Source of the DNA: Arenicella xantha
GTDB lineage: Bacteria > Pseudomonadota > Gammaproteobacteria > Arenicellales > Arenicellaceae
Assembly: GCF_003315245.1 (NCBI RefSeq)
Contig: NZ_QNRT01000006.1
Span: forward strand, 1 to 64,000
DNA: 64,000 nucleotides
Direction: 5' to 3'
Position numbers and translations under genes: made by a program. The notes under the pieces were generated by a model, which searched no databases, had not been told where the DNA came from, and saw nothing but the letters and a program-made list of their open reading frames with translations. This document shows, piece after piece, positions 15,583-54,475 of the stretch. Position 1 is the stretch's first letter, and each line of letters starts with the position of its first letter.

Positions 15583-15592
15583 ACATCTCTCA

Positions 15593-18500
15593 TTAATCAT
15601 TTGTTTTCACTGAAACCTTGGTCTCTTGAACAGGACCTTGTTTCGTTATGTCGTAGACTCTGGCGCTGCCGGAGCTATCAAACCCACCGTTATCGCTGCG
15701 TGCAGCACCAATAATGATCGCTCCTGCACTGCTATTGCTAACTGGCCCGATCACGCTAATAGATTTACCAAATTCTGAGTACGGTGTATCACCCTCTCCA
15801 CGAAAAAGAAGCCGCCAATCATCGCTCGAGTAAATTTCGATAGCTCCTTGATTTTGATCGCCGGAATTCTCTAACCCAACCGCGACATCCAATATTGAGT
15901 CTCCATTTAAGTCTACACCACCACTAATTTCACTACCTAAGTGTGAGTTACTTTCGAGGCCAACCAAAGTATGTATTAACAAACTGTCTTCACCTGAGTA
16001 AATGTAGATTTTCCCAACGCCATTGAGTACACCGTCGGCTGACGGTGCCCCCACAGCAAAATCATCTATTTCGTCTCCATTCACGTCGCCTACGTTAGCA
16101 ACCGAGGCACCGAACTCATCACCCTCCACCTCGCCAAGCAAAGTTCCAATAGACGCACCATCAGCACCTGAGTGAATATGTACTGCGCCGGCGCGACGGC
16201 CATTGTCTGAGTTACCTGGTGCACCGATAACAATGTCACGTATCTGGTCCTGGTTAATGTCACTAATACTTGCAATCGCGGTACCAAGTCTCTCAGACGC
16301 TTGCATTCCATCAATCCGATATTTAATTTCTCTAGATTGACCTGAAACCACAAAGACACTCCCCTCCAAGTAATCGCTAACGTCGGCGTTAGGCGCACCG
16401 AGTGCAAAATCGAAATAGCCATCTTCGTCTATATCGCCTAGCGGCTCCATCGAGTCACCCAACCCTTCTGTCAAACTTGTGCTTCTATACTGCTCAAACA
16501 ACGCACCTGTGTGGCCAGAAAACAGGGCTACGCCCGAGTAACTGCTCACTAAAAAATCATCATAATCATCGCCGTTAACATCCCCAGCTCCACTCACATT
16601 TCGTCCAAAATTTGCATACACATCATCACCAAAAAGGCGATGCAATATCGCGCCAGTCGCGCCAGAAACAACAAATGCCCCGCCGGTCTGAATATCGTCA
16701 TGGCGAAGGCGCTCGGCTCCAATAATTAAGTCCTCAACACCGTCATAATCCACATCACCAGCCCGATCTACCGATGAGCCAAATGATTCGTAAGAACTAT
16801 GTCCGTTGTAAAAATACACCCACTGATTAAATGTCTCCGCCTCATCACGAGGGTCAATCAATCCATCACCATCAGTATCAGCAATCAATGGATCGGTGAC
16901 GCCGATATTAGCGAACTCAATACCATCGGTTAATGTGTCATCGTCAGTATCGCTATCATTAAGCGATGTGCCGATTTGGAATTCAATCACATTACTTAGA
17001 TCATCATCATCAAGATCCAGTCCTGCATCAGCTGCATTCAACGGGTCTAGGCCTAAACTGAGTTCTAGCCCATCTGGCAATTCGTCGAAATCGGTATCGG
17101 CGAAAACGGGACTCGTACCATAATCATTCACTTCCGCACCGTCGAGCAGAGAGTCATTATCAGAATCTTCAAGCAATGGGTTACTGCCAATTGAAATCTC
17201 AAATAAGTCACCCAACCCATCACTATCGTAATCAGTGTGCTCATCCATATAAATACTCGGATATGGATCCGTCAACGCACCTAGTCCATCGAAATCCCAA
17301 TCCCCATTGCTCGATACGACACCAACAAACTCCGTCCCATAAGATTCCATACTAATCGCAATATCGCCAAAATTGTCGCCATTAACATCACCAACAGCCG
17401 TCGCACTCACCCAGGCAGGAAGACTCCAACCGCTAAACAACTCGCTTCTGTTCAAGTCATAAATCACCGAGCCATCTGCACCAGATACGATTTCAACGCT
17501 TCTGATATAGCTACCCTCTCCTCGTACGGCATAAACAAGCAAGGTATCTGCATGAAGATCATTATTTACGTCGCCAGCCGAGGTAGCAAAATATGGAGCG
17601 GCTAATTCATAGTACTCATCGTATATCTCCTTAGAAACGAAGCTACTGATTAGCTGCTGACCATCGCCGCCAGAGAAAATCTGAATCGGCACATTAAATC
17701 GGCTCTGATCAGGATGTGGTGAAACCAAAATATCTATACTCCCATCGGCATTGACATCACCAGCCTGCGAGACAATAGCACCCATTTGACTATCGTTACC
17801 TCCCGATCCGAGCGAACGCATTAGGCTGCCGTCAAGACCAGAATATAGATGTACTCGACTGCGCGTCTCACCCCAGGGGCCTTCCTGATCCGTTACCAAA
17901 AAATCATCTATTTGGTCGTCATCTACATCACCAATATAAGCAAATGACTGTCCAAAACTAGACGTATTATGTCCGTTGACAATAGCTGGTGGGCTTGACA
18001 AGGTATAAATAAACGCTCCATTCACACCTGAGTATGCATGCAACTCACCTCGCGATGGATTGCCAACGCCAATGTCGATGATATTATCGCCATTCAAATC
18101 TCCTATTGCCCCAACTACGCCGCAGGGTTGATCGCATAACTCACTGTCGAGGGAATGACCAGATAATGAAAAGATCAAACGACCAGTTTTACCAGAAATA
18201 ACATCTGCAAAAAGTTTGAGATTACCATCTTCATAGGTCGTTCTGGCAACCACTACATCACCGCCCCCATCATTATCAATATCACTCAACCCAGCCACAG
18301 AGAACGCAAAAGCCTCATCTCCATCACTGGCTAACAGATCGCGCAAGGTTAGCCCCGTCTTACCAGAAACAATTCGAGCACCTCCACCGCTCTCATCATC
18401 ACGGAAACCGATAATCAAGTCGTCGACCAAATCACCATCAACATCCTTAATACGAGCCAGGCTAGAACCAAATTCGTAATAATCACTGCCATAAGCCGTA

Positions 18501-21500
18501 TCAGACCGCATGCCAGCGGCATCTACATAGTGATACCAGTGATTGTGTGTCTCTTCATCATCATAGTCCCCATCACCATCGGTATCATCACGCAACGGAT
18601 TAAAACGACGCTCCAATTCTTCACCGTCACTCAAATCATCATCGTCAGTGTAGCGCGACCGTGGATCAGTGCCGTACAGCAATTCATCAAAATCCAAGAC
18701 TCCGTCGCCATCAAAATCGGTTGTTGAATCTGTAAAATGGTTGGGGATCGGGTCTTCAAAGTTGAGCAAACCATCACCGTCTGGGTCACCACCGATTGAA
18801 TAGACACGAGCAGTACCACTTCTGTCTCCATTATCCGTGTCTTGGGCATAGACACCAACAAGTATCTCTGCCCTGTCGTCACCTGTTACGTCACCAATGC
18901 CGGTGACTGTGAAATTATAAACACGTGAATAATATTCACTTTCCAGTTCAAATAATTGTCGGCCATCAAACCCTGAGAACAACTGCATAGACCCTGCTGA
19001 CGAACTATTTCTGACTTGGTCCGCCACAACAATTTCATCGAGTTGATCGCCATCTACATCACCAGCACTATCCACGGAAAATCCAAATTTTCCGCTTTCT
19101 CGAATTCCTACAAAACGATGTATGAGTCCAAAACCATCACTAGAATAGACATCAACGCGCCCAACTTGAGACATGCCACCTTCATCGCTATAGGGCGCCG
19201 ATACGATCAAATCTGAACGCCCATCACCGTCAACGTCTTTTGCACCTCGGACAACTTGACCAAACCCACCGCCGAACGCACTAAATTGATGATAAACAGA
19301 GAAGTCCTCTCCTGATATCACCCAAGCCGAGCCTTCAACCGATTGATCGAAAACCGGCTCACCAATAACAAAATCGGAAACATTACCATCATCAAAGTCT
19401 CCTAACGCGTCGATAGAGTAGCCGAAACGCTGACCACCAGTCAGCTCACGTAATCTTGAACCATCAAGGCCGGAGTAAACGGATACTGTCGATACCGCCG
19501 AGGGGTTGTAATTGGTACTCGTGCCGACGTAGTCAGGTGCCCCGACAGCTATATCGCCTCTACCATCCGCATTGACATCACCAATTCCAGCAATAGACCA
19601 TCCAAAATTTCTACCTTCTCCACTGTTGCCGCCATGAATTGTACGAATAGTGCTTCCATCTGCGCCAGAGACAACGACAACAGCACCCGAATAGACTTCA
19701 CCCTCATCTAACCTAAGCCCAACAGCAAAATCAGCGATTGTATCGTTGTCGATCAAGCCAACGTCTGCAACGGACAAAACATCATAATCGGAAACAAGCG
19801 GCGACTCGATCTCAGCAGGGAACGCCACCTGCAGTAGAGTGGCCCCATCAGCACCGGACACGACTCTAACCGCACCTAACTCTTGCTCACCAGTTTCGCT
19901 GCTCTTAGTGTAGATCAGCATGTCATTAACATTGTCTCCATCAACGTCACCCACTGGACTTACAAACTTGCCTAAGCCGTCATTCGGGTTTTGCCCTTTG
20001 AAGAAATAATACCAATCATTATCCAAATCATAAGCATCTGAGTGGCCATCACCATCCGTATCAGAATCATTTGGGTTGGTGCGGTGAATATGAACTTCAT
20101 CACCGTCACTCAAGCCGTCGCCATCTGAATCGCTATTGTGCGGATCAGTGCCCCACCGCGCCTCTTCATCAGCAGATAAGCCGTCGCCATCTGGGTCACC
20201 TAAATTGATTGTGTTGGTTGGCTCGCCATTGATCGACAAATATAAGTCTGTCGTCAATAAACTAGGATCACTAATTCTGAACTCAAATCCAAACTTATCG
20301 GCATTGCTTATCGCGACCAGATTACCATCTACATAAAGTATCGTATTGTCGAACTCAAGGAATCGACCTTGGACTCTAATATCAAAGAAGCCGTCAGACT
20401 CATTAATTGAAACTCCCGTTAGCGTGGCCGGATTGACAGTCGGCAGAAGTTCGACACCTGAATACAAATTAAAGATACCAACATCTGGTACAACAAATCC
20501 CGAATAGACTTCCAACAGCTCCGAATACTGCTGATGACGAGGTGAAAATAGAGTTCGAAATGCACGACCATCGGCAGTTAAAAGTAGTTCGGTAAAGCCA
20601 TCTTCAGTTTCAGAATCGTCTCGAGCATGCTCATACAGCCACACTTCGAGCTCCTCCAACGTTGATCCGGTAGGTTTACTAACAACAATGTCGACAAGAC
20701 TCTGATCAAAATTTAGTAATTTAGGTAACACTTCTGTTAACAAAGACGCATCCTCTAGAACTTCAATCGCACCAGAGCGACCATTCGAGTTGCCCTCCCT
20801 TGAGACACGCTTATAGTCGTCGTAGAAATCGTAGTTGTCTTCAGACCCTGGACTTGATTTGAACAGAGAAAACAAATCACCATAAACATCGAAAGTGCCG
20901 TCTGCGTATGGATTCGCAAGGTAAATCGCATTAATCACAATGCCTGCGGTTTGAGCATCTCGAATTGACGTAAAACCTTCTTCAGATAACGATGAAGGCA
21001 CAGGAACAATACCCGCTAGCGCTTCAGAAACAATTGAATTTGCAACTTGCTTAAAGAAACCTTGCGCTGGTGGTTCGGATACCAGTGCTGGAATATCTTG
21101 TGGGTTTTCATACAGAACCGGAGCCGACGTGCTAAGTATCAACACCATCGGAGTTGCGCTAGCGCGCGATCCTTCGCCGGACAATACCGATTGCGCGACT
21201 TCCACGCGTTGATTGTAGTTGACCAGTATAGGGTTGTCGTTGATGTCAATTCCGGCTATAGCCGCTGCAATTAACGAACGGTCATTTGTTAAGGTTTGGA
21301 TAACCGTTGTTTCATCAGATGAAACAGTAATAGCTACACGGGTAGTGGCTAGATTCAAGCCATCGACAAATGACAAGACGGCCGATTTTTGAGCTTCAAG
21401 TATCGTGACGAAATCACATATTTCGGGATCCGGTACTTCTGAATCACACTCGGGCGGAAACCCATTCACATAGGCATCAGCATCGAACGAGTTATCGATC

Positions 21501-24500
21501 ATGATGACAAGGTCAGTTGGTAGGAATGAGTAAACCGCACCATCAACCGGCGTTACCAATGCGTACTCATCCGGTAACTCGATCACCACGGTATTGTCAA
21601 CCGTGACTGGAACTGACTGGCTTAACAGCGGATTCTCAATAAATTCAACGCTCACGCTAGCGCTGCCTTCATCAATAAAGGCTAACCCACCGGTAAAGTC
21701 AGTGGTCACAACGCTTAAATCATCGCTAGCATATTCTACTAACTCAAACAGCGATTGAATTTGAACCGTTTCGATACGGCCCTGTGCTTCAAAAGTAGCA
21801 GTTACGGTTAATTGTGCAAGATCATCATTCTCACCCATCGTATGGCTAATCGCACTTGGTTCAACAGCGATCCCCGTCACAAAAAACGGGTCAACGTTAC
21901 GATCACTTGGATCGTACGCCAAAGAGCCAGATACGACCTCTATAAAGTCAGAAACACCGTCATTATCGGTATCACCGAGCAGTGGGTCGGAATCATGTAG
22001 CCTGAGCTCATCAAAGTCATTGAGGCCATCCCCATCGGAGTCTGCATTATCTAATTCAGTGCCTTGCGCTACTTCTTCGATGTTTGATAAACCATCGCCG
22101 TCTAAATCCTCTTGCCCATCAGAAAGCCCATCACCATCCGAGTCATCATTGTTCGGGTGGTAAATATCCGAGCCGAATTCATAAGCGTTGCTCAAGCCAT
22201 CACCATCGAAATCGCCGTCGGCTTGTAGCACCTGCAACCATAGAGAATTGCCTACTGTCACTGCCGCACCACTGCTCGACAGAGCGTCGATGGTGACCGC
22301 TAATGTTTGACCGTCAGTTAAGCCTTGCCCAGTATGAGTCGGTAGCTCAATCACATTATCAACGCTCGTAATCGACTGCTGCTGAACATCAGTGTACGCC
22401 AGCGGATCAACAGATTCGATACGACTAACCGATAACTGCCCGCTTATAGGATCAGCAATAGCTGCAGCTAATTCAATATTGATCGCGGTCGTAGTGCCCT
22501 CCAAGACGACCAGTGTTTGCGGAATCTCAATCCTGGCGTCGTACATGCACTGATCAATTTCTTGGCCGAGCAAATCATCATTAGCCGCTGCACCGGTCCA
22601 AACCGATGAAGCACTAGATATTTGATAACACTGTCCTAGCTCAAACGGCATCTCTGGTGTGAGAGTCGCGATTGTAGATGTTTCATCAACATAGACAGTT
22701 TCGCCGGCTACTTCTATATCCGCTAGCCGCACCTGAACTGCATCGATAGCTTGGTCGACGTTGTTTTCGATAAGCTCGGAGTACACCATTTCCAATGGTG
22801 TGATAGTACTGTTAATAGCTTTGACAAATGATTGACTAATTATCGCTGGCTTACGTTTTTCAAACTCAATCTCAAGGTCCGCAAGTGTTGTCAATGAAGC
22901 CGGAACATCGCTTCCAGAGAAGCTATCGATTGACACAACAACTGACTCTACCTCCTGATCAGTCACTGTAAACTGCCCTACACCACGATTAACTGAAACG
23001 GACTGATCACTCAAAGTAGCGCTGCCGGTCACTGACACGTCGATAGCTAAATTGGCATCAATCGACCCGTTCTCATCGGAGAAGGTTTCTACATGATTGT
23101 AAAATTGATCCAAAATAGTTGCGACCATCGTCACTGTTTCGCCAGCTTCAAGGCGTTCCGGCTCGCCGAATGGATGGTTATCTCGCACGCTCTGTTCTAG
23201 TCGAACTTGGAAAGCGACATTCGCAAGCACGTCAATCGTTAATATGCTCGATGGCTCAAAGTCTCCCGAGATATTTTCGGTTGCCGTTTGAACTGACCCT
23301 GTGGCTGTTAGAGAAGCCGCATACATTCCAGCCGTCTGACTCACCGTCAATGGCACCTGTGCGTGTCCATTTTGCAAGGTCAACACAACTTGTTCGCCAA
23401 CCGGTTCGAGAGCAGTAACCGCAGCATGGTTCGCAAACCCAAAATGAAAACCACCATGTGGGACCGCAACCGTTAATTGAGTAATCGAGTCGTCAACTAC
23501 CAAATTACCGCCACGGTCTCGTGCTGTCGCGCTAAGAACAAGTTGTTCATGCGCTCTAACAGGAGCCGAAGTTTGTATTTCAATTAGAACGGTTTCACCG
23601 GTGTCGATTCGAATGCGGCGCTCAGTTGATACGTGCGCGCGTGTAACTAAGGCTGCTCGCAACGTATACAAACCTTGTAGCTGGTTCGCATTGACGACAA
23701 TCGATGCTAAACCGTGAATATCGGAACTTGTTTGACCTAATTCAATGGTCTGCCCCGCCAAGGCACTCGAAACCGGAACCAACTGCCAGCGTATAGACTG
23801 ATTTGGAACTCGACGGTTTGCATTGTCGAGCACCTCAACTTGATAAACCGGAGTCGCATCTACTGTGAAAGCAATTGGATTAAACATCGGTTGATCAGGT
23901 GCTTTAAAGAAACGTAGTTCGTTTGGCACCCTGGTTAACGCAACCGTTTTCGTCTCAGTTTGACCTGACTGTCCAAGGTGATCGATAAGCCGAACCTGAA
24001 ACTGGTAGTCGTCGTTGGGAATGTCATCATTTGGTAGAATGAAGCTTAGATTAGCCGATCCAAACGGACTATCAACATTGGAAGATGCAACGGTTTTGCC
24101 ATTAGTTGGTGATATTTCAACCACTTCTATACGTATCGGATCATCTCCTTGGTTTGCTCCAGCTAAGCCCGCGGCCCGAACAACTAGTGGGTTGCCATAA
24201 AAGTCATTGGCATTGAAATCAAGGACTAACTGACTCGTAGCCGGTGCTAAATCAGGCTCAATAGATACCTGAATTTCGTCGCTAGCAAGTTGCCCGAGAT
24301 CATCAATTACCCTAACCGTAAGCGTTTGATCGGTCGCCATACCAAGTCGATCAGCACGCTGGTCTCTAACCCAAGTATTAACCGGCAAGCTGACAGGTCC
24401 GCTCGAACTAGGCGGCAATGCTACGGCGGTAGTAACACCATTCCAAACTACTTCAGCGTGCTCAATAGCTACTTGATCTTGAGCATTGAATAACACGTTG

Positions 24501-27500
24501 AAGCGACCACGTTCGAGCACTGGCGTATTGTTCACCTGCAAACCGGAAATTGTTGGTTTAGTGTCCTCTATAATATTGTATGTGTTTTCGATTTCGAACT
24601 CTAAGCCAGCCTTATCCGTAACCGTGAGTTTATATTTCAATACCTGATCTCGCTGCGCCGTAGTCTCCACAAAATGGATGGGGCCATCTTCAAACACAGC
24701 AGCGACAATCACGTCATTGCGTTCTAGAATCGCCGATTCGACACCACTACCTGAGTCGCTTACGACACTACTAATCACAAAATCATGACGCTCAACAATT
24801 CGATTTCCAGAGAGCAGCGGACCATCAATTGAAAATGGGCTTGCCGTTGGCAACTCGGCATCGGCCTCTCGAATAAACGGGACTACTTGAGAGGATGTTG
24901 TGTTACCAAATACGTCGACTGCACGAACTTGTAGGTAGCGCGGTGCACTGTCTGGCTCATCGGCTGGGTAGTCACGATAGATCACGTACTCTGGGCCGTA
25001 ATGCTTTCCGATAATTTTAAACTTACCAGTCGGACTCTCAGCCTCATAGTATTCAACTTGAAACACCGGCATCGTCGAGTTTGCTACTTCTGCGCGAATT
25101 TCAAGTGGCTTAGGTACAAATGTCGGAACTCCCAACTGAGGACTTACTAACGCCACTGAAAATCCATTCACAGGCAAATCTTCGCCCTGCAGAAGCACTT
25201 GTCTGGGCAACGATGCAACTATCTCACCTGTCACAGTCTCGACACGAGTAGATAACTCGAACGGTTGCCCGTTGCGCAGATTTGCAGGGACTAACAAGCG
25301 CGAGCTAAAAGGTGCACGGTCGGAACCCGATACCAGCTCACCATTTATAAGATAGTTGACTGCTACCACCCCCATGGGATCGGCGACCGACAGCGTCAAA
25401 AATTGGCCTTGTTGATACACTGTATCTTCTGAGGGCTCCAGTAATGCTGGGTTTGTAACCTCGCTTAATGCACTAACTTCAAGAACTTGAATACCATCGT
25501 TGCCCAACGCCAACGCCATTAGGCCATCGTCAATATCCATCGCCGTTATAGTACTATCGACGTTGTAAGCTGGTTGCTCAGTAAATTGCCAAGTGAGAAC
25601 ATCGATTGCACGAATACGAACATTTCCCGCTAATTTATCAGCTACCCAAACTTGCTGGTCTGCGTAAGCTAACGCGAGAATACCGTTTGTGTCGAACTCT
25701 AGCGTGGAATCAATGCCGCTTGAAATAGCATATCGGTGCAACGTGTTCCCTACACTAAAGAACAAGTAATCACCACTAGTAGCTAGATTCTTGATCTCGA
25801 GATCAGAATTGCTAAGTATTTCTCGTGCCTCGACCAGTGAGTCGACAACCGGCAAACTACCGAGCTCCATTCGGTGCAAACTGTTAATACTGGTTGCATA
25901 GAAGACAGAATCGCCAAACGCAACCAATTCAGTGATTATCGCAGACGGGTCGCCCGAATGAGCAATGCTCCCTAACTGAAGCACTCCAACCTGAGCGAAG
26001 TCATCGCGCTTAGCGATATGCAATTGATTACCCGCTGCGGCGACCACGTAGGTTTCACCAACCGCTACCTGTGTGGCGCTTAAGTCGCGGAAAACTGTTT
26101 GTTGCTCTGCAAGATGCCTATCACCACTCGAGCTCATGGTTACCGCTTCCACCACGCGACGATCCTGCTGAGAAAGATAAACAGCATTGTCATCTACCGC
26201 GGCCACATGACTAGCGACCGTATACGCTTGAGTCGGATAGCTTTCAGTTTCCCAGCGACCATCTACTGATTTTATTACCCGAGCGCCAAACTCTCGAGCC
26301 GCTGCCGCTACGACACCGTTTCTGATAGCGACACTATTTACAATACCGCGCGCCGATGACTCAGAGAACCGAGGGCTCAAACCTGTCTCACGTCGATCAA
26401 ATATAATCGCCTTGCGAGTTATGTCGCCGAACACCATACGCCCAGCAACGATGGTAGCTTTAGACACGTCAGGCAATGCCAGGCCAAAATGACGCGCCAC
26501 TAAGGTGGGCGAACTTGGGTTACCTAAATCAATAAAGGCTAGACCTGTCTCGTTCAATGCTAAGAGAATACGTCCATAACTAACTAAGGTCTGAACATCA
26601 ACACTAATTGAGTGCTCACGCGGCAGCTCACCGGAAACAATGCTAATAACTGATTGATTAGCGGTTGCTACTTGGAATACACCTTCGTGGACAACTGCTG
26701 AGCGAGCTTCTGGCGTCTCATAGGTTAACTCGACATTACCATTAAACGCATAATCAAATTCCATAAGGGAATCTTCAAACAGAACAGCAAATCCCTTATT
26801 GGTAGTCAATAATTGCACCGCATCTGAAGGTTGAACTAACAGATTTGACTGATTATTTTGACCAACAACTGACATAGACGTTGGCGAAATTTCATTACCT
26901 GACGTTTGGTATGCCTGCACATTACCGGCGAAATCTCGTGTCAAAAAGCGGTCGCCATAAACTGCTAGTTCAAGCACTTTTGAAGGCACAGAGTAAGTAC
27001 CGACCACTTGAAACTCTTCAACTGGATCTAATACCACCAAGCGATTGTCTGCAAGTGCCACCAATAAGCGATCGCCTAGCCTACTTAGAGCTAAAATATC
27101 GGCATCGAGTTCAGCTAAACGCACACCGTATTGGTCTGTAATAAAGCGCCCTTTTGTTAACCAAACCATACCAACATCGGGCAATATTTGATCAAATGTT
27201 AGGCCACTTCCGGTCTCAACATTTGGATGAATACCAGGAACCACCGTAACATGCTGCTCAACTCTACGTTGATTGCCGAATTCATCGCTCACAATTGCTA
27301 CTACTAGCAAATAGCCAGTGCCATTCGGTACGGTAAAACTAACGCCTCCAACCCCAGAGAAAATTAACTGTTGAGAATCATCATATACCTCAAAAGTAGT
27401 ACTGCTATTCGAATACACACTGCTCTCAACCAGCGACAATGATAACTCACTACCAGCAAATACTTGCCCTGCCAAGCCTTCAACCTGAGGGGTTTGAACC

Positions 27501-30500
27501 TGAAGACGAGGAGCTAAACGGATACCAATTTGGCGCTCAACAAAGGCTAATTCGTCACCGTAATAACTGCGCACCTTCAGAAAATATGTATCCAACTGAG
27601 GCACTGCAGGAAGGCGCAAATCGAGCGAACCTGATGCACTCGCAGTCAGCACGTCCGCAATTACATTCTGCTCGAAATCAACTAGCGAAATCTTACTAAA
27701 GCGATAGTCTTCGTCGGTAGCATGCAGTGACTCATAGTTAATCTGGACAACGTCGCCCTCGCGGTAGGCGGCATTATTGGTCGGTGACAGAATTTGCAGC
27801 TTAGAGGTCAAATTTGCATTGTCGATCAACACAGCATTGAGGGCTGGTTGTGCACTCCCATTCACTTCGATCGGCTCATCAAGGTTACTGCTGCCATCAA
27901 GCCGTAGCCACTGAAACCCAATCGATTGATGTTCGCCAAGCACGAGTGAAGTTTGCGTCACGCTATGAGAAGCAATGCGTGCATCCGACAAATATCGCAC
28001 CAACATTGGCACGTCTGCACCACGAGTAAGCATGGCACTAGCTACGGGCTCTATGCGTTGAATAGCCGTATTCAACGGTGCGTCAATGATGATCGTTTCA
28101 GCCACATTCACACCGTGAGAGACAGCGATAACCGAAACCTGTGAGGCATCTATCAGATCAGCATAAGCGACGTATAAACCTAGTTGACCATTACGCCACA
28201 CATGCGTGCTAGGCAGACGCAAGCCATTTTGGTCTTGTAAGTAGACTGTGTTTGCACCAAATGGCAGTCCGTCCATATGGAGTGCGAACTCTACACCGAA
28301 AACCGCTGGCTCAGCGGATACACTAAGTGTCGGTGGCGATAACACAGCATCCAACGACTCTATCGATGAATTTATTATCTGTTGCCGATCTGACTCAATG
28401 GCCGTATGGAATAGTTGGCCTGGAACAAACGCTCGTAAGGTTTCGCCTGGTAAGGTGCGTTGCACACCAAGTAGTTCTCCTGACCGGTAAGCTCGCCATT
28501 GATCACCCTGACGATTTCGAGTGTATATCCAGAACAAATCACCATCGGATACTACATCAACCACTTCTCCGTCGAACACCTGAGGCAACAAACTAGTCAA
28601 TGCGCCATCAGCCTCTAGTATATGTGCCTGTATAGAATCGGCCGTCCAACTCAGAGCTTGACTTCCTGTCACAGCCAAACCCTGCTGATCTGGCAGCGCA
28701 ACAAAGCTCACGAGCTGCAATTGAGGTGTTGTGGTAGTCGACACCGCAATCCTTGCCAGCCCCTCATCAGTCAACACCAGTAGGTCTTGGCCATGTGCTT
28801 GCGCAGCACGTATCGGGTCGGCCATATGCAACCCGAGGGTCGCAACAAACTGAGAATCGGTTGCCGTAATAAGGCTGATAGTTTCACCGTAACGCAGCCA
28901 AATTTTGTTACCCTGCGCGGCCAAAACATCACCGTATGCGGGTTGCGTAACAGGCATTTGGAGATTTTCTTTATCAAAGGCGTGGAACTCAAGACGTTGA
29001 GAACCTTGGTCTGTTATCACCACTAACAAGCCGGTGCCGGTGTTGATCATTTGGTCGAGCTTGCCACTTCCATTGGTAACTAATTCGCCCACATTACTCA
29101 CAATGCGATAACCGCCTTGCGCTAAGTTGATACCGGCAAGAACCTGTACCGCGCTGCCTAGCTGGCTGGCAGCGACTAAGTGATCAATTTTCTCATTAGC
29201 CGTCGCGGTTAAAACCACTTGCGGTGCGTCATCGGTGAAATATGCTAGCTTTTCCAGTGTCTTGTCGAAATCAATCTCATTCTGCGATCGGTCCATTAAA
29301 TGAGCAGACACTCGAACGTCATCACCTAACGCAGTTACCTTAGTACTAAACGGTTCTGCAAAAGACGCAACGGCTGCCACGACGCCATCGGCAGGGTCGA
29401 TTACAGTCACTGATGACTCACTTGAAAAGTCGGGCATTTCGTCAGGAATCGGCACGTTGACCATCAAATCGGTGCCAGTGAGTATCTGGGTCGTTGGCTT
29501 GGTAATTATACTCGCAGCTTGCTCTATGCCAGTATCATCAATCACATTCAAAAACGCGAAGCCGCGAAGCGCTCCTCGTTGCAACCGCGCCAGCACCACA
29601 ATCGATTCATCCACCGAAGGAATTGTAGCAGTTACCAACTGCCGCTCAGAGTCAGTTGGCTCACGATTGATATGAATCGCTGATTCGGCTGTTGCCGCAA
29701 CGCCACCTACATCCAGAAATAAGTCTGCTTCCAAAACATTTTTAAGCTTTACTTCAAAGGTAATGGTTTCATTTTCATAAAACGTCTCACCATTGCTCGG
29801 GCTTATGATTTCAAGGCTCGGGGCACCATCCGCCGCATTATATGGATACAGATTTACAGTAGCCGTTTCGCTGACATTACCATTGGGGTCGAAGGCGCGT
29901 GCTGCAATACTTATACCGTTAACCAAATCTATATCGGCATCAGTCACCTCAACACTGTACCGAGTAGGGTCAGCCAGTGTTTCGAACTCTCCGCCGTCAC
30001 GGCTTACTTCAACACGGTCAATACCGTACTTATCAAACGACTGTATCAAGATGTCGGTCCGTTCACCAATGGCAACATAATCGCCATCTTCAGGAGACAC
30101 AATCGATAGGCTTGGCGGCGTACTATCTAAATACAGTAGATAATCATGGTTAATAACTGTACTAAACCCAATTCCATACGTAACCGCTAAACGCGCAGTC
30201 ATGGTGTATGGTTCATCACCACCGCTTGTTAAATCCTTGATTTTAGGGTTTAAAAATGATGCTGAGACAATGCCGGATTGCGGATCATAACGATCGAACA
30301 CATCTGCCCGATAAGCATTATTGACTTCATCAACACCCATTCTCGCTTCTGTCACCAAGTCGACATCACCTTGCAAGTCAAAGGTTAGATCAACACGAGT
30401 AGATTCTTCTGGTCGCTCCGGATTTGTCACGAAGTTCTCTAATTCAACCTTCGGCTCAATCAACTTAATCTCAAACCTAGTTGGAACGCCATTACCTGCG

Positions 30501-39500: not shown

Positions 39501-42500
39501 CTACTAGCGACTAGTCCGGCTCTGGCGACCACAACCAATCGTTCACCAGAAGACAATACATCTGGGTAGCTAAGCGTTAGCTCCGCATCATTACCGTTTA
39601 TCTTAACGTTAGAAGGCACAATCGTACCAGCTTCAGAAAACACACTAAAATATTGTGAATTACTCGGATCCTGATCGATTGACTTATTGAACCGCAGACG
39701 TATTGAAACATCACCATCAATACCAACATCCAACACACCAGTTGCGGGGTCAATTGACTGTAATTTTAGGATAGCGTCAGGCGTTTCTTGAACTACCCCT
39801 AAGCCAAGTGTTGATGAACCACCACCAATCACTGAATATGGCGTGGCTAGCACTGTATCGATTATGTTTCCATCAAAGGCTTCATAGCTATCGACAATGA
39901 CCGGTGCGGAGGGATTGGTAACATCAAAACTAGTAATTCCCGAAGCTCCCGATGCGACATACAAGGTATTACCGAGTAACGAAATATCTAAGCTTTCTAA
40001 CGGAATTCGGTGAATAATTTTAGGCCTGCTCAAGTTCTGAATATCTACCACGACCACACCTATTGAGCCCGCTGATAAGTACGCCACTTTTGGCCGTGGG
40101 TTAGCAAGGTTCACCGCTTCAACAAGCACTTTGCTGGCGGGAATATCTAACGATGCGCGCACCTGCAGTCCGTCATTGGTGGTGCGTTCAATAACATGAA
40201 ATCCGCCAGCTCCGACCACTTCACTGTCTACTAAACGGTTATTGGCTAAATCGAACTCGCCGCCTACCGCTAGGTACATCGATTGCGCTATATCGAGTTG
40301 CTCAACTCTTGCTACATCAAGAGCCGCTCTGCCGCCCGGCAACTTCAAACTATCAGAAAGATAAGGCTTGCTATGCAGAAACGCATCTACAAAACCTATC
40401 CCACGCTCGGCCATAGCTATCACGGCTTGGTTATTCTCTACCTCTATACCTTTAGCGAAATTAGCACCAAGTCGAGTTTCACTAATTAGGGTGTATGAGG
40501 AAATATCCAGTGAGTCTATCGAATAAATAAACAGTTTGGCATCTGCGGCCATCGAACCGATTTTCGCCGCGGTTACAAAAATACGGTCATTGTTACGTTC
40601 AAAAAACAGATCGACACCTAGAGCTGCATAACCAGACGGTAAGGCTATGCGAGTTTCAATGCGGTCATCAACTCCATCGTCGTTACGATCGATTAACTCA
40701 CGTAGCTCGTCTGGGTTAGTCACGTCATTAACATCGGCCGTAAAAGTAGACGAGTTAATGTTAAAAATGACAACACCCCCACTACCCGCAGCGGCCACTG
40801 CATACATACCATTAGGGTCGATCGCAAAATCATAAAAATGATCAGACTTATCTGTAGTGATATTAGTTTTGACGGGCTGTAAATAAGTAAATACGTCGGC
40901 TAACTCAGCTTGTTGATTAGAGGTCTCAACACGTATTGATGCACTCCCTAATTGGCCTGGTGGTGCCACAAACTCGACAGTCTGAGAATCCAATACCTTC
41001 ACCGAGTTGTGGTCAGCCGCTTTGCCATCCACGTAAACTCGAGTCTGCATCGCCCCAGCCTGAAAACCACGCCCACGCAAGGTTACCCGCGTGCCGCCGA
41101 CTACCGAACCCTCCGCTGGCGAAATTGATTCTAAAACTAGCCGCTCAAGGTACAAAATTGCGCCAACTAAGCTTACTAGCCGCCCATCGGCATTAACCAG
41201 TTGCACGCTCGCGGGGCCAGCCAAACTTGCTGGCACACGCACTTGATATTCGAACTTTCCACCACCGAGGTCAGCACTACTAACCACTTGGGCTGCTTCC
41301 CCAGAGACTGAAAAAACCGGATCTTGGGCATTGCTCGTGACGATCGTTACTTGTCCCCCAGCGATGTCAACAACGCTAGGAGTGATTGATAAAATTTCTG
41401 GTTTCTGGCCAACCGAGCTCGCCGTGGTGAAATCAATATCCAAGTCAAATAAACCAGTAACTCGCCGCCCGCCGTCACTTGGTTCGGCCATTAGACGCAA
41501 GGTGTAGTTTGTATTCGATAACAAGTCGTCATTCGGCTGCACTCGCAGCAAGCTCGAATCAGTTGGATCAACATCAATAGCAACATCCACCAAGCTACCG
41601 TCGCTGCTGCCATCGTTTTCAATTAAGGCTAGATAGCGTGCTAAGTATTGCTGCGCCGACTGACCATCAGGAATCACGATTGGACGATTAAATTTCAGCT
41701 CAACAGCTTGATCTACACCGACACCACGCTCATTTTGCTGAGGAAATGTCGACACCAAATCCAGCGTGAAAGTATCAATCAACTTAATAGTCGACTGTTC
41801 CCCCGAGATCGCGACCGTCGCGACAAAGCCATCTTGAGAATGTATATGTGGCCAACGGTCGAGTGAATAGCGCTGATAATCCACGTGCTCATAAACAGCA
41901 TTCATCAACAACAACGAATCCTGCAGAGTCACAGCAGCTTGCCGACTCGCATCAAATAGGTTTAGGTATAGCTGCGACGGCGATTTCGTTGGCCCTTGAA
42001 CAAAATTTAGTGAATCAAGCGCCGTCGCCGAACCGCCGAGAGCTAACACGCCTCCGGGTAAACTAAACCCATTTGCGTGATATTGGCTCACCTGGCTAGA
42101 ATTCAGTATATTCGAGTCATCCAAGAGGCCTACGCCCTCGGCATAGAAAGCAGTACCCTCTAACGTGTCTAAGCCCAATAGTTCAGGTGCCATGCTTACC
42201 ATTGGATAGTCAACGACTTGCGGTGTACTTGGTTTACTCAAGTCAAAGACAGCACGACGGTAGCGCGGACGATTACCTGCTCCAGGCATTGTTGCGACCA
42301 CCGATAGATAATCACCGACTATGCTAATTGATTTGGCATTTAGGCTCTGCGGAGCACCGTTTGCGACGAATTCTTTGAGAGTTCTTATTACTGTTGGTTG
42401 TGCTGGATCGGCTAAACTAATGAGCACAATCCCCTCAACACCGGCATTTGCAATCAACAATTTGCTATGCACTAACATCTGACTCGGCGGTTCACTGACA

Positions 42501-45500
42501 GGCAGAGGAATGCTGTAGCGAATATCACGATCTTTAGAAAGTTCACTACCACTCGGGACACGTGTCTCCTTGTCATAGACTAAAAGCCAGTTAGCGTCTT
42601 CATAAGCAGTTTCAATCAGAGGAAAATGCATACCTGCAGCCGTTACGTAGACGTGCTGTTCGCCTAATACTAACCCTGCGGCGTTTAGGTCTTGAGGTAA
42701 ATCGAAGTACCCCACCCCAACTGCTGGACTCGAACTCAAGCCCTGACTTTGCTTATAGCTAAGCAACTCCAACCAGCTAGGTACAATATATTGACGCAGC
42801 GTCTGGTGGTTCTCCACATTACTGGGCACAGGTACGTTCTCACCTACCAATGGTGCACCACGTCCCAACACATAGATTAAATCCAACTCCGTATCGGCAG
42901 CCAAACCGACCACTCGGCCGGACGGCAACTTACCGGCTTCACGAGAAATACCAGATGGCAAACCGTTGGCTATTCGCTCTAACTCGTCACTAATTTCCGT
43001 AATAGTTCGACGTGCAGACAAATTGATCTCGGCATTGGCCGATAAATTACCATAAAACAGTGCTTTTGGAGCGTAGTAAAACCGACCTCTCGAGTCGCGT
43101 ATTTCAACGTCAATAAAGCCGCGAAACTCTTGCCCAAAGCTTGGAACCACCCAAGCCATTCGTTCTGCTGATTCAACATGAAGCGCATCACTGGAGGCAA
43201 ACTGCTCACCCGCCAACTCTGGGTTTCCGCTCGGGTACGACCGCAGTACTACGTCTTGATTAAAACCATAACCAATAATCTCGACCAAGTCACTCTCGCC
43301 TACTTGGCTTATATCTACGACCGACGGCGTAATAAACGATATTTGCAATAGGTCCAGATAGGTATAGGCACCAATCACTGAATCCTCTAAACCCATTTCA
43401 GTGACTACCCTGACAGCTGCCGGTCCGGCAACATTGGGTACCGTGGTGGCGGTAATGCGATCAAAGGGTATTAGTTCAGTAGCTCGCTCATAGCTATCGA
43501 TTACCAGCTTGAGCCCACCGAGGTAGATATCAGGCTGGTCACCAAAATGAGAGCCGCTTATTACGATACTTTGACCGCCTTCGATAGAGCCGGCATTTGG
43601 CTCAATCGCAGAAATATTTGGGCTTTCTGAACGTCCAGCCACAGACGTAAAAAAGGAGAATCGGTAGTCTGCGCTGAGAGCATTACCAGTAATCGGTGAC
43701 AAGCCCTGCTTTATAACAACGACATACTGCATGTCAGCGTCGAGTTCGTTGTTTGATACAATCTGGATAAATCTAGATTCTGACGCACTGTCTGATAATT
43801 TGAAGGCCACGCTGAAATTGTCAGTAACGCGCTCCCCTACCGCATAGTTCCCTTGCCCGTCCGGAACTATCGCGCCTCTATAAACATCAACAAAGTCTTT
43901 TATGTCTGCGGTACTCGGTACTAACGCAGAAAGCTCGACCTCAATCAGCGGCAAATTCGTCTTAACAACTCGCTCATCACGGCTCGGAGTATGGTCAACT
44001 ACTGTCAGTTCGGTAAACTCTATTCGATTAATACCGGCCTTACCCGCCGCAGCTTGAATAGCACCGCGTGCTAACGCAAGATCTCGCACCGCAAAATTTG
44101 TATCGTCGGCATGCCGAATAATCACCGCTGGCACGGTAGCATCGACCTCCGGTAGCCCCCATCGCTCAAGGTCAATTATTTCGATTATAGTTTGTGCCGG
44201 TGAATCTTCTTGATCTGAGTAATAGACACTTGCATAAGCCTTAGTTCCAACAATTTTTACGTCATAAACGCCATCGCTAACAAGATCTTCACGATTTGGC
44301 TCGAGGGCAATAGTTCGCTCCATCAATAAATTGAATGGGTCAGATATATCTATCACGTTAAGCTGTGATACTCGACCCGAGCCTGACATATCTGTTACGT
44401 ACAAGCGGTTCCCGACTATTTCCAGACGGTTGGCGATCCCGAGTGTATCAATAACATCAATAATAGGTAAGTTGGGATTGGCTATATCCACTACCACAAC
44501 GCCCTCAGCAGAAGCCGCAATATAGGCATAGTTATCCTTGATTTTGACATCCCGCGCAAAGCCATTAGGCTTAATAAACCCCAATTTATAAGGGTCGGCA
44601 ATATTCGAAATATCAAATACCTGAACTCCACCGTGCCCATTCGCTACGAGCACTAGGTCATCTTTTCTATCAAGTCCAAATGCCTCTGAAAAAGGTAGAT
44701 CAGCACGCCCTTTTAGTAAATACGGTAATCCAAACTGGCCATCAGCATTTTGGTTGGTGAAGATCAGCAGCTCTCCACCAAAATTTTCAGTGTGAAGGTT
44801 CTCAGGTCCAGCCGCCTCTGAAATATCACTAAGAAGTGAGATTACGAATGGCGACGTGTCGTCGCTTGTAGCGAGTGGGTTTTGAACCCCACTTTTAGCT
44901 GCCAACACGAAGTTTGCATCCGTGTGGATATTAGAAATCGTACCAGCAAATATCTCTGAATTGCCTGCCAGTAATGGTGAATAAACCAGCACGTCACCAT
45001 TATCTTCAACCGACTCGTTCATGTCGGAAAGAAACAAGCCTGTACATTCAATACATCCATCCGCATTGCTTCCGACCGAATGACCACCAAATAAGTCTTC
45101 ATGGCGACTTGGGTCATGCGTCGACCAAGCACCAACTACCGCACCTTCTCGAGTTGGGCTGACAAACTGTTCCACCGCCGTGTAATACACACTTTTCATT
45201 ATTTCTTCGCGCGGCGGCAACATCAGCCCAGGTGGTGGCTTGGGTGCAAAAAAACGACGTTCAGTAACCCGCGCTCCAACCTCATGAAAAGTGCTTTCTT
45301 TTGTCGTATGGTCTGGCGTAGACACGCTCGTATCAATACGCACACGTTCTCTAGTTCGGCCGGTACGACGTAGCACGGTGTCATTACTAAAATTGGCCCA
45401 ATAGACAAAGTAGTAATTATCGGGATCACTAACTGGCAGGTTCGGTCGATCTAGCACAGAATCATTACGCACAAGTTCAACAACCACCTCGTTCGTCGAG

Positions 45501-48500
45501 CCGTCACTAATAGGACGCCAGACACCGTCGGGGTCCTGCGCCTCTCGGATTAATCGCATTTCAACGAAACGATCTTCATCAGCGCTAATATCAATCACTG
45601 ACACCGCCAACACCAAGTCATCTTGTGCTGCGGTTAATATGTCATTATTTAGGGGCGCCAATACCGCTAATTTGGGCGCGACAGTATCGTCAATTCGGCC
45701 CAAGTTAATCACTTTCGATTGCCCAGGTTGGTTGCGCACATCGTAAGCAATAGCTTGTAATGTAAATCCATCAACATCTATCGGCGGTTCGATTGTTGCG
45801 CTGTAGTAACGCTCGCCTACCGCCAAGTCAGCGTTGGTAGCTTCGTTCTGATATACCGTCTCCACCAATTTATCATTGAGGTAAAACTCAACTCGATCAA
45901 CGCCGTCAAACCCCAAGTCGTCGGCAACCTTTGCGGTAACCTCAAGTTCCTGCCCATCAATGATCACTGAGCCTTCCAACGGAGTCACAATTTCCGTGAT
46001 TGGCGGCTGATCCTTAGTAATAGTCAAGATCTTAGTCTTACTCTCGTCGATTAGCGAGGTATTAGCGTCTAAGTCCACTGCGCTAGCACGAAACGCCAAT
46101 TGCTGACCAATCGCACCAACGGGCGCTGTCACAGTAAACTGGAATGGCGCAGAGCCGTCAGTAGCTCCCGCGACAAACTCCATCGACTCTAGATTGCTGC
46201 CCGACGCCTGATACAACGTCACGCTGTCTACTCCGACTTCAGGATCTGTCGCCTGTACCTCGACCAAGAATTCACGCCCTTCGGTAATCGTATCGAGATT
46301 ACCGAAGCTGTTTCCTTGGTTATCCAAAATTCGAATGGCTTCGATCTGCGGCGGCGAATTTTTAACCAAAACCAGCGGTTGATTCACTACCGTTTGGTTG
46401 CCCGCGCCATCCTGTGCCGTGGCACGGAATTGAAGTGCTAATTGATTTGGCAGAGTACCGCTATCAGCTAAATACCCAGCAATTGAATCAACGCTCACCC
46501 CACCGAAATATGGTGGTGATATTAGTACGCTTTCGCGCACGACCTCGGTCGCATCGAACTCACCATTTTGGTCAATATCAGCAAATAAGTTCAATCGTAG
46601 CGAGGTAACCCTAACATTGTCATCTGCTGTAATGTTGTACTCAAAACTACGTTTTTCAGCAACCGTCGGTATCACATTATTGACCACGGTAGGACTAATA
46701 ACCGTCAAAGTTGGAGACTCACTATCGGCCTCGACAATTAGTGAAACAACGTCGCGAGAACTCACCGTACGCGGTAAGGCAGGAGATCTCAGTTCCGTGA
46801 CACTAGCAGATAACGATAGAGGCTTACCTGCTTGACCATAAGGCACTTCAACAAAAAACTCGTAAGGAAATGTAACGTCAGTAAACACCTTATCACCGCC
46901 AACTAAGCCGTTTACGGCAAGTGTCACTTTATCAATACCCACGTCATCTATTGCATTGGCTTGCACTAGGAGGAACTGCCCTTCAGTGATGCGCGATCCA
47001 TCAATCGGTGCGGCAATAGTCACCTCAGGCGGCACATCACCGACTAACTTTGTAACAACGGTTTTTTCGACTATATGGTTATCAATATCGCTAGCATCAT
47101 TGCCAAAGTTGTCCTGTGCGCGAACTTTGATAACAATCCGGTTTTGACTCGGATCATCCGTATTCAAACTCGGCAAGCGATAACTAAACCCGTACGGCGG
47201 CTGGTACAACGTTATGTCACCACCTGGAAGTGGTTGTTCGAGGTTTTCAGGACCGGCTAGAACTTGGAGTTGCAAGCTATCAATGCCGACGTCATCGTAT
47301 GCGCTGACATTGATCTGGAGGTCTGTCGCCTCGACCACAGAACTATTATTAAGTGGCGTTAAAACATCTACTACGGGCGGCAAATCGTCACGCACAGGAA
47401 AACTGATTTCACGACTTCGCTGGTTATTCGATGCGTCCCGCGCTAATACCCGAACCCAAATATCGAAGCGCTCTACAGCATCGCGTTGAAGCCCGCTAAA
47501 CCGTTGTAATATTTGGCTTTGCCGCTCTGTATGCAACAGCTGTTCATAAATCAACGTGTCTATATTATTGGTAGTAATGGGCTCATGATCTATGTCTTGT
47601 ATGTTCGTAATAGTGCGTAACGGAACATCAAAATCCAATTTTTGATAATCACCATTTTTCAATAACACTCCATACGATTTTGAAAACTCAAGCTGGGTAA
47701 CCTTGACGTTGTCAAAACCCCGATAGCGTACCGTGAAATCCGAATTCTCTGGTGGCCCATAACCGACCGTTGGGCTAATGATCGCTATTTCCGGATTAAT
47801 CTGATCTGCAGCACCAATAAAAGACACCTCATGGATTGCCACTGCGCCTTCTGAGTCCTTAATCTGAGCCGTTAAAACTATGTTCTCATTTAACCGAACT
47901 AACCCACTGGGTATATTGAAGATAGCGACTTTAGCTAGAGAGTGCGGGCTAGTGCTACGCCCGTAATCTTGCGCGACTTGCACTGAATATTTATCTTCAA
48001 ATGCGTCATAAATTGAATCAAATGCCGAGTTGATGGCCGCATCACTGGGCTCAGATAAAGCGTCACCTCGCACCGTCAACTCCACGCCATCTGCGAATAG
48101 ACGTAAAAGACCAGTCGGTAACGGTCTATCGTCCGCCGCCACCACGCCCACTTCGATATTAAATGTACCCGCTACAATCAGCTGGTCGGGCGCGGGCGTG
48201 GTAATACGTATCTCTGGAGCCACGTTAGCCAATGGGTGAATCAAGAAACGTCGACGAGATACGTTGCCCGTGTTGTCTTCAACAGTTACTTCATACTGGG
48301 TTGGTTCTGACCCAGTGAACGAAATAATTTTCGAAACCGAGGGCACAAACTGAGTCGGCTTAGCGGGGCAGCTATGAGAAAAGTTAATCTCGTGCAGTAG
48401 CTGGCGCTCGCCGTCTCGCTTAATTTTCTCGAGTGCATACCGAACTAGACCAGCGTCATCACGGATTGACGCTTCAAGCGCAAAACGCTCTCCAGTACGC

Positions 48501-51500
48501 AACCAAAACTCGCCATAATTAACTCGGTCAGGCGAAGTCAACTCGGTTTGCACAGCACCATCAATGCTATAGCTGGTAAATTTGGTAAACGCTAATTCAG
48601 GATTTTTATTCTCGGCTATGGTTAAGTTAACTGATGCCGCAGCTTGACGTTGAGAAGGATCTGTTGCTACTACTGACAAATTAATTTCACCAGCCAAACT
48701 AGTCGCCGGAACGGTGTATAGAAACACGTAAGCGTCTTCGCGCTGCACGATACCTACGCGCTGAGCCACTAAGCCATTATTATCGCTGAGTGACAAATCG
48801 CGAACTGACAAGGAATCATCTTTTGCAAGCACAGATACTTCAATCGTCTGACCCGCTACCACCGCAGTACCATCGACTGGAGATACTACAACCAACGAGG
48901 GATCGGCGGCATCAATACTAAGCGTCTGATCGAATAACTTCAGCGGCGTTATCGGGCCTCTCTCCTCGGCGAAACGATCACTGCCCGCCGCATACAGCTC
49001 AACTCGATCAATGCTTGAATCAACCGGGCTTTGAACATAGTGATTACTCCGCACCTCAGCACCACTAATCGGCAACAACCACGGCACATCAATAAACGCT
49101 CTGTGACCGGATACACCCGCATCATTGACAATCAGTTGAAGTCGATCGTTACGGTTAACCTGATGATCATCTTGATTAAGTTCGAAATCAAAGACTTGTG
49201 GCTGTTCCGATTTTATTACATCAATACGCTGTAGAAATAATTGTTCTGGCGGCACTCCAACCACAATAGGTGTAACGACAATTCGACCAGCGTAGGCCGA
49301 ATACTCCAGCAAATTTAAAGTTCCATTGCTACTAGTCAGGTCACTGGCCGATTTTATGACCTGCTGATGAGTCACTACGCAAGGATCATTCGAATAAATA
49401 TCAACTTGGTAATCAACTGAATATCCGTTGACAACAAGTTTAATGGTGTTGATTTCCTGTGCTGGTAATACTTCAATCTCGCTTTGAGATGCTGAAAAAT
49501 GCCAGAAGGGTTTGCCGTTAAGCAATAACTCCCCACTGTTATCAACAGCTTCAGGATAGCTAAAAGACCACCAATGCCGATGACTATTTTGCTCTACGTT
49601 CAGTGCTAGATTACGACCTTGTTGACTGCCCATTTCTGACAGCGAACTGTAGAGTGTAGCCAAGTGATTCTGACTACTCACAGCCAGATCATCAACCGTT
49701 TCTAAACGAGAGAATAAGTGCTGCCCTTTTAGTGCTATTGGCTGAGGGCTACGGCCCAACAAACTTATATTAGGCGCACTATCTGGCAACACCTTGATCA
49801 ACTTACTTTCACTAGCCGTATTACCAGCAGTGTCGACGGCTGTCACCACAATCCTTAGCTCCAGACCCTCATCGGGGACTGGAGAATATAAATTAAGATC
49901 TAACCAATCCGCCTCAAATATATCAACGATGTCACGATCTAAGCCCTGCTCCGACAAAAGCACTCGCGTCTCACTGTCGATCAACGACACTGAGTAAGAC
50001 TCAATCGCCAAATTATCTTTGATCTTGGCCGAAAGATTTATTTTCTGGCGCTCGACGATATCTAAAGGAGGCGAGTCAATACTAATAACCGGAGGCTCAT
50101 CATCCGCCTTGATCATCAACTTAACCGTGCGCGTCTCTCGAGTGTTAACGCCATAGTCGCTAGCGCGAACTTCGAGATCAAAGGCTTCACCGGCACGCGA
50201 ACTCAGATTTTTCGGCACGCGAATCCGACCTTCAAAGTCAGCATAATGTCGCTCTGCGGCAACTATTGAACCAAATGAACCTTCATTAGCCACACGAATC
50301 TGTTCAACTCGATCACTACGTGTGAAAATTTCCCATTCCAGCGGAATTGAATCGCTATCGTCAACCAAAAATACTCTGATTTGGTCGATCGCAACATTGT
50401 CACTAGCAACGCCTGTCATTACAAATGCATCACCAGGATACAAACTTAGATCCGCGTCTGGTTTCGAGTAAGCAACTTCCGGCTTTTCTGTATCTTGCTG
50501 CACATCAAGTGCAACAGTAACCTCTTCAGTTAACTCGTTATCATCAACAGCCTCAACGCCAATACTCAGTGCGTCACCCAAGGTCAAGCTCGGCGCTCTT
50601 AACACAGCGGTAAAATATCCCCCCGCTGCCATCAATGCATTGGCCTGATTAGCTGAATAAGTCTTAACAACTTGTTTTACGCCATTTATCTGCTTAAAAA
50701 CTTCGACGGACTGTAATGCGCGATTATCATTTACTAGCGCATTCACGGTGACTCGTTCACCTTCGATTACCCGTAAGCCCGCAGATGGTTGCCGAATCGA
50801 AATCGTCGGCTTCTGGTCTTGTGCTACAGGGTACGTTGCACTTGTAGACGCCAAGTTACCTTGAACATCAGTAGCTTCGATTTGAAGCGTTACCTCAGGC
50901 ACATCTGGAATTAATAAACTTACTGTGTGTAGCTGGTTCTGCCCACCCAGCGACACATCGGTTAGCAGCTGACCTTCATAGCTCACTACAACACTAGCCA
51001 GACCACTCTCATCTTTGAGTCTAAGCGTAAAATCTACGTCGTCGCCAACATATAATAAGCCCCCTGGTGTTGGATCAAATACCGCTGCAAGCGGACCATT
51101 GTTATCGGCGACTATCGACATTTCTGCACTTGCTACTTCCGACTGCAACCCCCGACCGTCGGTTGCGGTTATGTCTATTGTCAAAATCTGATCAGCATTG
51201 GGTACTGGGGGAACCAACGTTGCTAAATCAATTGCCTCAGAGCGCTGAAGTGTCGGCATTCCTTGCAGCCCAGTCGCCGCTGATTGACTAACCGATGCAA
51301 CGATTTGATCGCCCAGTTTGTATTCAATTTCATAAGCCTCAACTGACCTGTCATCACGCATTAACACGTCGAAATGAACTTGATCTGTGCTGTAGTACCG
51401 CGTTCGGCTCGGCGTAATACTCACTACCTCAGGAGGTTGGTCAGCATAAACGCCAATAACCACATCAACGATGGAGCTATTGCCTACGTCGTCAAATACC

Positions 51501-54475: not shown

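Follow-up and report, generated by a model that had tools for sequence, protein, structure and literature searches.

The stretch of Arenicella xantha DNA analysed here (64,000 nt, positions 1 to 64,000 of NZ_QNRT01000006.1; hereafter the window) carries on its minus strand a giant gene encoding a protein of 12,960 aa, and this gene opens a conserved module of several genes, with an effector of the Rhs type at its end. Read along the minus strand, the giant gene (15593..54475) is followed by two genes for parvulin-type peptidyl-prolyl isomerases (PPIases; 14773..15600 and 13904..14770), a gene for a 1,050-aa protein here called CPR (10730..13882), the effector gene (862..10719) and a gene of 185 aa (303..860). 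The six genes are tightly packed, with an 8-nt overlap between the giant gene and the first PPIase gene and then gaps of 2, 21, 10 and 1 nt. The order giant, PPIase, PPIase, CPR and effector recurs in five other genomes (G015, G133, G579, G261 and G441 in our numbering); the whole giant gene is present in the operon of G015, G133 and G579, and on the operon contigs of G261 and G441 it is seen as a tail only. The window starts at base 1 of contig C6, and the genome (4.44 Mb in 29 contigs) is 99.3% complete.

The giant open reading frame (ORF) extends from an ATG at 54475 to a stop codon ending at 15593, and its 38,883 nt contain this single terminal stop and no internal one, in agreement with a preliminary description of the sequence that had claimed an intact frame of 12,960 codons. 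The frame is real. When the window was simulated 100 times with an order-2 Markov model, the longest open frame averaged 182 codons and never exceeded 252, and the codon-position G+C stays steady over the whole giant frame. Besides, stop-free homologous frames of 12,790, 12,701 and 12,771 aa occur in the separate assemblies of G015, G133 and G579, and a fourth, in G261, encodes at least 13,617 aa and reaches the contig end, which makes an assembly artefact very unlikely. On the simulations and the open homologues in separate assemblies, we rejected a chance frame or an assembly error. The encoded protein has a computed mass of 1.39 MDa and a pI of 4.27.

The start signals claimed in the same description were also recovered, as judged by eye. 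Directly before the giant ATG, TAAGGGATT (54476..54484) holds an in-frame stop and a Shine-Dalgarno-like AAGGG, and the nearest homologue, the G015 giant, has the similar TAAGGGAAT at the same place. A Sec-type signal peptide covers aa 1-30 (54386..54475; ...LLLAYLSSASA, followed by QLDIRVAD), several homologues have comparable N-termini followed by a DIR-type motif, and no Met besides M1 occurs within the first 200 codons of the giant. A putative, weak sigma-70-like promoter match (TTGACA-17-TATCTT) was located at 54584..54612 in a scan that found 4 promoter-like sites in the region versus 2.8 in shuffled sequences.

That the frame is held open by selection, as had been proposed, is borne out by orthologues in other families, which at 35-37% identity show neither an interrupted frame nor a break in colinearity across about 10,900 codons. 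Compared with the G015 homologue, the proportion of nonsynonymous differences (pN) was 0.326 and that of synonymous differences (pS) 0.805 over 10,908 codons, with every 1000-codon block giving pN of 0.26-0.47 and pS of 0.75-0.84, and the comparison with the G133 homologue gave pN of 0.471 and pS of 0.797 over 10,598 codons. Synonymous change is saturated and therefore yields no numeric dN/dS, and a closer relative, with pS below 0.5, did not occur in the set of genomes searched. Because pN lies far below pS and the core described below is colinear, the giant gene appears to be under purifying selection.

A colinear core and a variable tip

The giant protein can be divided into a core (aa 31-10949; 21629..54385) of 10,919 residues and a variable C-terminal tip (aa 10950-12960; 15596..21628). 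The core aligns end to end with four full-length homologous cores at 35-54% identity, namely those of G015 (54.4% identity, 10,904 residues, 32 gap runs, the longest of 7), G133 (35.8%, 10,841 residues, 178 gap runs, the longest of 28), G579 (35.0%, 10,848 residues, 193 gap runs, the longest of 19) and G261 (37.3%, 10,888 residues, 190 gap runs, the longest of 34), and a partial core from G347 aligns at 37.3% identity (6,474 versus 6,513 residues, 102 gap runs, the longest of 24). No gap run of 60 or more residues was present in any of these five pairwise alignments, the partial one included, and therefore no whole domain was gained or lost. Across the five full-length cores, 1,574 of the 10,919 columns are invariant, and the best-conserved residues are G, W, P and C.

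The tails past the core measure 2,011 residues in the window and 1,855, 1,834, 1,874 and at least 2,691 residues in G015, G133, G579 and G261, respectively, and their content changes as well. FG-GAP and TSP3 repeats occupy the tip of the window's giant, a sub-threshold G8 match that of G579, TSP3, Big_7 and a regulatory domain that of G261, and PPC that of G441; the G133 tip had no Pfam match at E <= 0.001. The two Arenicella giants have 20 and 13 FG-GAP matches at an independent E-value (i-E) below 0.01, compared with 0, 2 and 1 in three other giants. Since the core is colinear at near-constant length and the tails differ, the core seems constrained in size and order and the tip does not. A difference in domain number between relatives, which characterizes repeat-variable giant adhesins, was thus not observed in the core and was observed in the tip. 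The search for a control for domain stability found no second long Big_7 protein in G000, and in place of a matched control protein the core is compared with the tip encoded by the same gene and with published accounts, such as the significant length variation of DDxP giant proteins among isolates of one species reported in PMC7730722.

Domains of the giant were counted with our own profiles seeded on Pfam matches (i-E < 0.01), which returned 21 Big_7-like Ig, 9 TIG, 2 Big_5, 10 LVIVD, 12 TSP3 and 20 FG-GAP matches. First comes an Ig array made up of 16 Big_7-like matches (aa 454-2868; 45872..53116), which is followed by a zone in which LVIVD propellers alternate with TIG/Big_5 domains (aa 3275-7277; 32645..44653), by mixed Ig domains and propellers, and then by the TSP3 repeats, a VWA_2 match (aa 11024-11114; 21134..21406) that at 21.3 bits lies below the Pfam cut-off of 27, and the 20 FG-GAP matches, which form integrin-alpha-like propellers (aa 11502-12941; 15653..19972). 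A search of PDB sequences with the last 1,960 aa retrieved 62 distinct sequences at E <= 0.01 (best E 1.7e-12), the top 60 of which were all integrin alpha chains, and the same search with the core gave nothing useful (best E 0.035). Tandem Repeats Finder detected no tandem repeat inside the giant gene and a self-BLAST of the protein gave no off-diagonal pair at E 1e-3, and therefore the domains must be strongly diverged. With these two null results, an internal tandem-repeat protein was rejected as a description of the giant.

Partner genes and a putatively exchangeable cargo

The first PPIase (275 aa) matches Pfam Rotamase at 4e-26 and the second (288 aa, SurA/EpsD-like) has a weaker Rotamase_2 match, and both have orthologues in the related operons; as seen by eye, 12 of 14 PPIases have a Cys at a lipobox-like place. 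CPR has a variable N-terminus, TSP3 and Ig-like parts, and a conserved C-terminus, with Pfam matches to Glucodextran_B and, below the curated cut-off, to TSP3 and a carboxypeptidase-regulatory-like domain. Its last 900 residues are kept across hosts and its front changes, with an ice-binding-like adhesive domain at the front of the G133 protein. No PDB sequence matched CPR at E <= 0.1, an AlphaFold2 model built from three sequences was unusable (mean pLDDT, the predicted local confidence score, of 39.9), and a PADLOC scan of the five operon proteins besides the giant gave no match.

The effector (3,285 aa) has a Sec-type signal (judged by eye) and starts with a conserved N-domain (aa 1-996; 7732..10719) that had no Pfam family match, a best E of 0.97 against PDB sequences and an unusable AlphaFold2 model (three sequences, mean pLDDT 31.7). 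Behind it lie DUF6531 and Rhs repeats up to the Rhs core end (aa 1132-2818; 2266..7326; RHS_repeat 382.5 bits, Rhs_assc_core 62.6 bits with a cut-off of 32.5), a pretoxin HINT domain (PT-HINT, aa 2997-3130; 1330..1731; 67 bits, cut-off 27.7) and a toxin-like C-terminal tail without family match (aa 3131-3285; 865..1329). All 24 Rhs repeat matches in the whole genome fall within this gene. The tail contains a GHH...H motif, which resembles, as a lead only, the motif [SG]HH, H listed for Tox-SHH nucleases in PMC3482391. By its position, the 185-aa gene is a candidate immunity gene; its product has two CxxC-type motifs and no match in NCBIfam (E <= 1) or PADLOC. Beside it, at the contig start, a 137-bp unit is present in 1.9 copies that are 98% alike (window 22-286), a repeat that perhaps explains the assembly break there.

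The effector N-domain was aligned in seven sequences from seven genomes, with 28-64% identity to that of the window, and the parts behind it are exchanged between hosts. The G015 effector consists of Rhs repeats and, after a run of N, an ORF in which HINT is combined with a GmrSD_C nuclease domain (27.9 bits, cut-off 23), and the effectors of G441 and G261 end in alpha/beta hydrolase matches, at the cut-off in the former and below it in the latter. Each of these two hydrolase-type effectors is followed by a secreted-looking protein (308 aa, L063 14336-15262 in G441; 341 aa, L065 11880-12905 in G261) without family match above cut-off, and the two proteins, related at 27% identity, are possible partner or immunity proteins.

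Occurrence of the module in other genomes

Profiles of the core (aa 2801-3800), CPR and the effector N-domain were searched against 369 sampled genomes of the class. The core profile gave 24 matches at E <= 1e-10, six of which were full length (G000, G015, G133, G251, G261 and G347) and the other 18 weak, scoring 41-54 bits against the propeller regions of shorter proteins. The CPR profile gave 15 matches at E <= 1e-6, six long (G000, G015, G133, G261, G347 and G441) and nine short or weak, and the effector N-domain gave 7. The three parts occur together in five genomes (G000, G015, G133, G261 and G347), and their union comprises eight. Some of these matches are given by construction, since profile rows came from G000 and G015 for all three profiles, from G133 for core and effector, and from G261 and G441 for the effector. 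In the phylum sample (398 genomes) the core matched G000 and G579, with a weak match in G796, and in the order of G133 it matched one of 85 genomes, G133 itself, which had supplied a profile row. At closer range, strong CPR matches were obtained in 4 of 18 genomes of the same genus (G000, G001, G007 and G015), with a fifth weak one in G010, and 100 relatives gave 7 matches at E <= 0.001, three of them weak; PPIase 1 was found in 3 of 109 genomes of the order at E <= 1e-25.

Additional parts of the module lie on separate contigs in several assemblies. G347 has a giant tail, the PPIases and CPR on a contig that ends after CPR, with an effector-like frame on another contig, and the giant body of G261 and the 6,474-codon part of the G347 giant are likewise on other contigs. 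In G007 an N-terminal giant piece, recognized by eye, and a C-terminal piece with the PPIases, CPR and the start of the effector are on separate contigs, and the middle of the giant was not found in that assembly. The tail of the G441 giant resembles that of G133. Just upstream of the intact giant of G579 and in another frame, a 205-aa ORF similar to the giant N-terminus (L098 9136-9753) is perhaps the relic of a second giant copy. Another genome of the genus, G006, contains two further long frames, L073 7302-16640 (3,112 aa) with a weak CPR match and L073/L074 17877-26915 (3,012 aa) with a weak match to the tip region.

Mobile carriage was considered and rejected: CPR was not found in viral contigs or plasmids, the effector tail and the small gene were not found in plasmids, and a core piece gave only weak matches, to three plasmid records from cyanobacteria, which covered 14-28% of the query at 30-38% identity.

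A putative secreted scaffold and its alternatives

Frame, gene order and colinearity are direct observations, and on them we build the reading that the giant serves as the secreted scaffold in a conserved module for polymorphic effectors, with tips and cargo that can be exchanged, to which we give a little better than an even chance. The giant with its partners looks like the scaffold of a surface weapon or adhesion machine. By its Rhs repeats, HINT domain and variable end, the predicted cargo is of the Rhs polymorphic toxin kind, with a candidate toxin and a candidate immunity protein. The giant, CPR and the effector would cross the inner membrane via Sec, the PPIases, mostly lipoproteins to judge from their lipoboxes, may help the beta-rich chains to fold in the periplasm, and the three large proteins could then assemble at the cell surface. 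In the giant core, Ig domains and beta-propellers would build up a rod or shell of constrained size, the giant tip and the CPR front may bind target surfaces, the Rhs cage with HINT would bring the effector tail to prey or to a neighbouring cell, and the product of the last gene may protect the producer. For the outer membrane, type II secretion is the likeliest candidate route: GspD matches were present in 9 of 9 hosts searched (8 over cut-off), which allows this route and does not demonstrate it.

A more specific proposal, which we consider unlikely, is that a single chain of about 1.4 MDa, assisted by two dedicated isomerases, folds into a size-constrained extracellular delivery machine in which the tip selects the target and the cargo is interchangeable. 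If so, one chain would do the work of multi-subunit injection systems.

Several observations weigh against the scaffold reading. GspD is common, with matches in 6 of 14 control genomes (2 over cut-off), and the two PPIases of G347, as called, have no clear lipobox. The effector tail and the 185-aa protein of the window match no Pfam model at E <= 10, the gene that follows the HINT/GmrSD_C ORF of G015 has a SUKH-1 match of 21.6 bits, below the cut-off of 25.4, and a DUF900 match in G261 is also below cut-off. The G133 effector has Rhs repeats and no HINT match, and that of G579 has Invasin_D3/Big_1 and no Rhs match; the term toxin may therefore not fit every host. In G441 the assembly has no match to core aa 2801-3800. 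G251 has the core, the effector N-domain not being found there, and G209 has the effector N-domain in pieces and no core match, both assemblies being fragmented; in the G251 assembly the giant itself is broken up into three successive ORFs (157, 690 and at least 4,124 aa), and undetermined bases lie close to the first break. Moreover, trees of the module parts (5-6 taxa) disagree in their deep splits.

The giant could be an adhesin or matrix protein for attachment to cells or surfaces, accompanied by an Rhs or hydrolase protein that, as YD-repeat shells can, acts as a structural or enzymatic partner and not as a toxin. This explanation is possible and somewhat unlikely in our judgement. It would account for the integrin-alpha-like propellers and TSP3 repeats of the tip, the ice-binding-like front of the G133 CPR, the invasin-like end in G579 and weak matches of the giant tip, far below cut-off, to the Myxococcus motility/cohesion proteins CglD and MtsD, but it leaves unexplained the pretoxin HINT of the window effector, the HINT, nuclease domain and SUKH-1-like neighbour in G015, and the exchange of the effector end between hosts. 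In its simplest form, an isolated adhesin, it was rejected because the gene order around the giant recurs. We find it improbable that the locus consists of two adjacent units, one made up of a giant surface protein and the foldases, the other an Rhs toxin locus that is unrelated to it and uses its own N-domain and CPR: the complementary absences in the fragmented G251 and G209 and the differing deep splits of the part trees fit such a division, but five other genomes have the same order, with identity between families of about 30-40%, which neither chance nor recent juxtaposition explains. A long frame kept by drift or produced by assembly error, with no product, finds nothing in its favour beyond the broken G251 copy and is highly implausible against long open homologues in four genomes, a pN of 0.33 versus a pS of 0.81 and a colinear core.

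The scaffold reading can also be set against known systems. The module shares with Rhs polymorphic toxins the Rhs repeats and core end, DUF6531, a pre-toxin processing domain (HINT), a conserved N-terminus with a variable C-terminal tail and a small downstream gene, and differs from them, as described in PMC3482391, in its N-domain of about 1,000 aa and its operon with a 12,960-aa scaffold, two PPIases and CPR; the words isomerase, PPIase, prolyl and Ig-like were not found in the accessible text of that review (Zhang et al., 2012). It resembles the repeat-built giant adhesins of the RTX/BapA type, the DDxP proteins (PMC7730722) and Apilactobacillus Giant1-5 (PMC12863079) in a very long, secreted, beta-rich protein with many Ig-type domains; unlike the DDxP proteins, which are reported to vary strongly in length within a species, the giant core keeps its length between families. 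Unlike the giant adhesins of type I secretion systems, the giant has a Sec-type signal, and no RTX match was obtained in the Pfam scans and no type I secretion gene among the nine neighbours scanned. The FG-GAP propellers and TSP3 repeats of the Arenicella tip recall integrin alpha and thrombospondin, with the difference that here these modules are confined to the variable tip. CdiA and two-partner secretion systems combine a long surface protein with a variable C-terminal toxin-like domain, a likeness to our module, in which, unlike CdiA, long protein and cargo are encoded by separate genes; Pfam scans of the giant and the nine other window proteins, the rest of the genome being unsearched, gave no two-partner secretion, filamentous-haemagglutinin or CdiB-type match. 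Tc toxin complexes likewise have an Rhs-type cage for a C-terminal effector within a large multi-gene complex, and no TcA or SpvB/TcdB Pfam match was found in the window operon, in CPR and the effector of G133, G579, G441 and G261, or in the G015 effector. The Sec-type signal of the window effector, seen by eye, differs from Rhs effectors of type VI secretion systems, and the nine other window proteins have no PAAR or VgrG match (Pfam, E <= 0.001).

The combination of giant, PPIases, CPR and effector was not found described in the open-access full-text literature, the scope of our search, with subscription papers and preprints outside it, and there is a real chance that the module is a new kind of apparatus. 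The usual picture of giant repeat proteins is that of elastic strings with a drifting domain number, and about 10,900 residues kept domain for domain between families therefore call for a reason, such as a defined fold or a defined assembly. Through an operon that also holds dedicated foldases and a variable Rhs or hydrolase protein, giant genes would acquire a role in antagonism or predation that can be tested, and the delivery scaffolds known for Rhs effectors would gain a further member.

Elsewhere in the window, and unrelated to the operon, lies a gene with a GTG start for a FeoB-like protein of 607 aa (56281-58104). An array of about 7.8 copies of a 17-bp unit (GAGCCTTCAGCCAATAA) at 61959-62088 adjoins the end of an acyltransferase gene.
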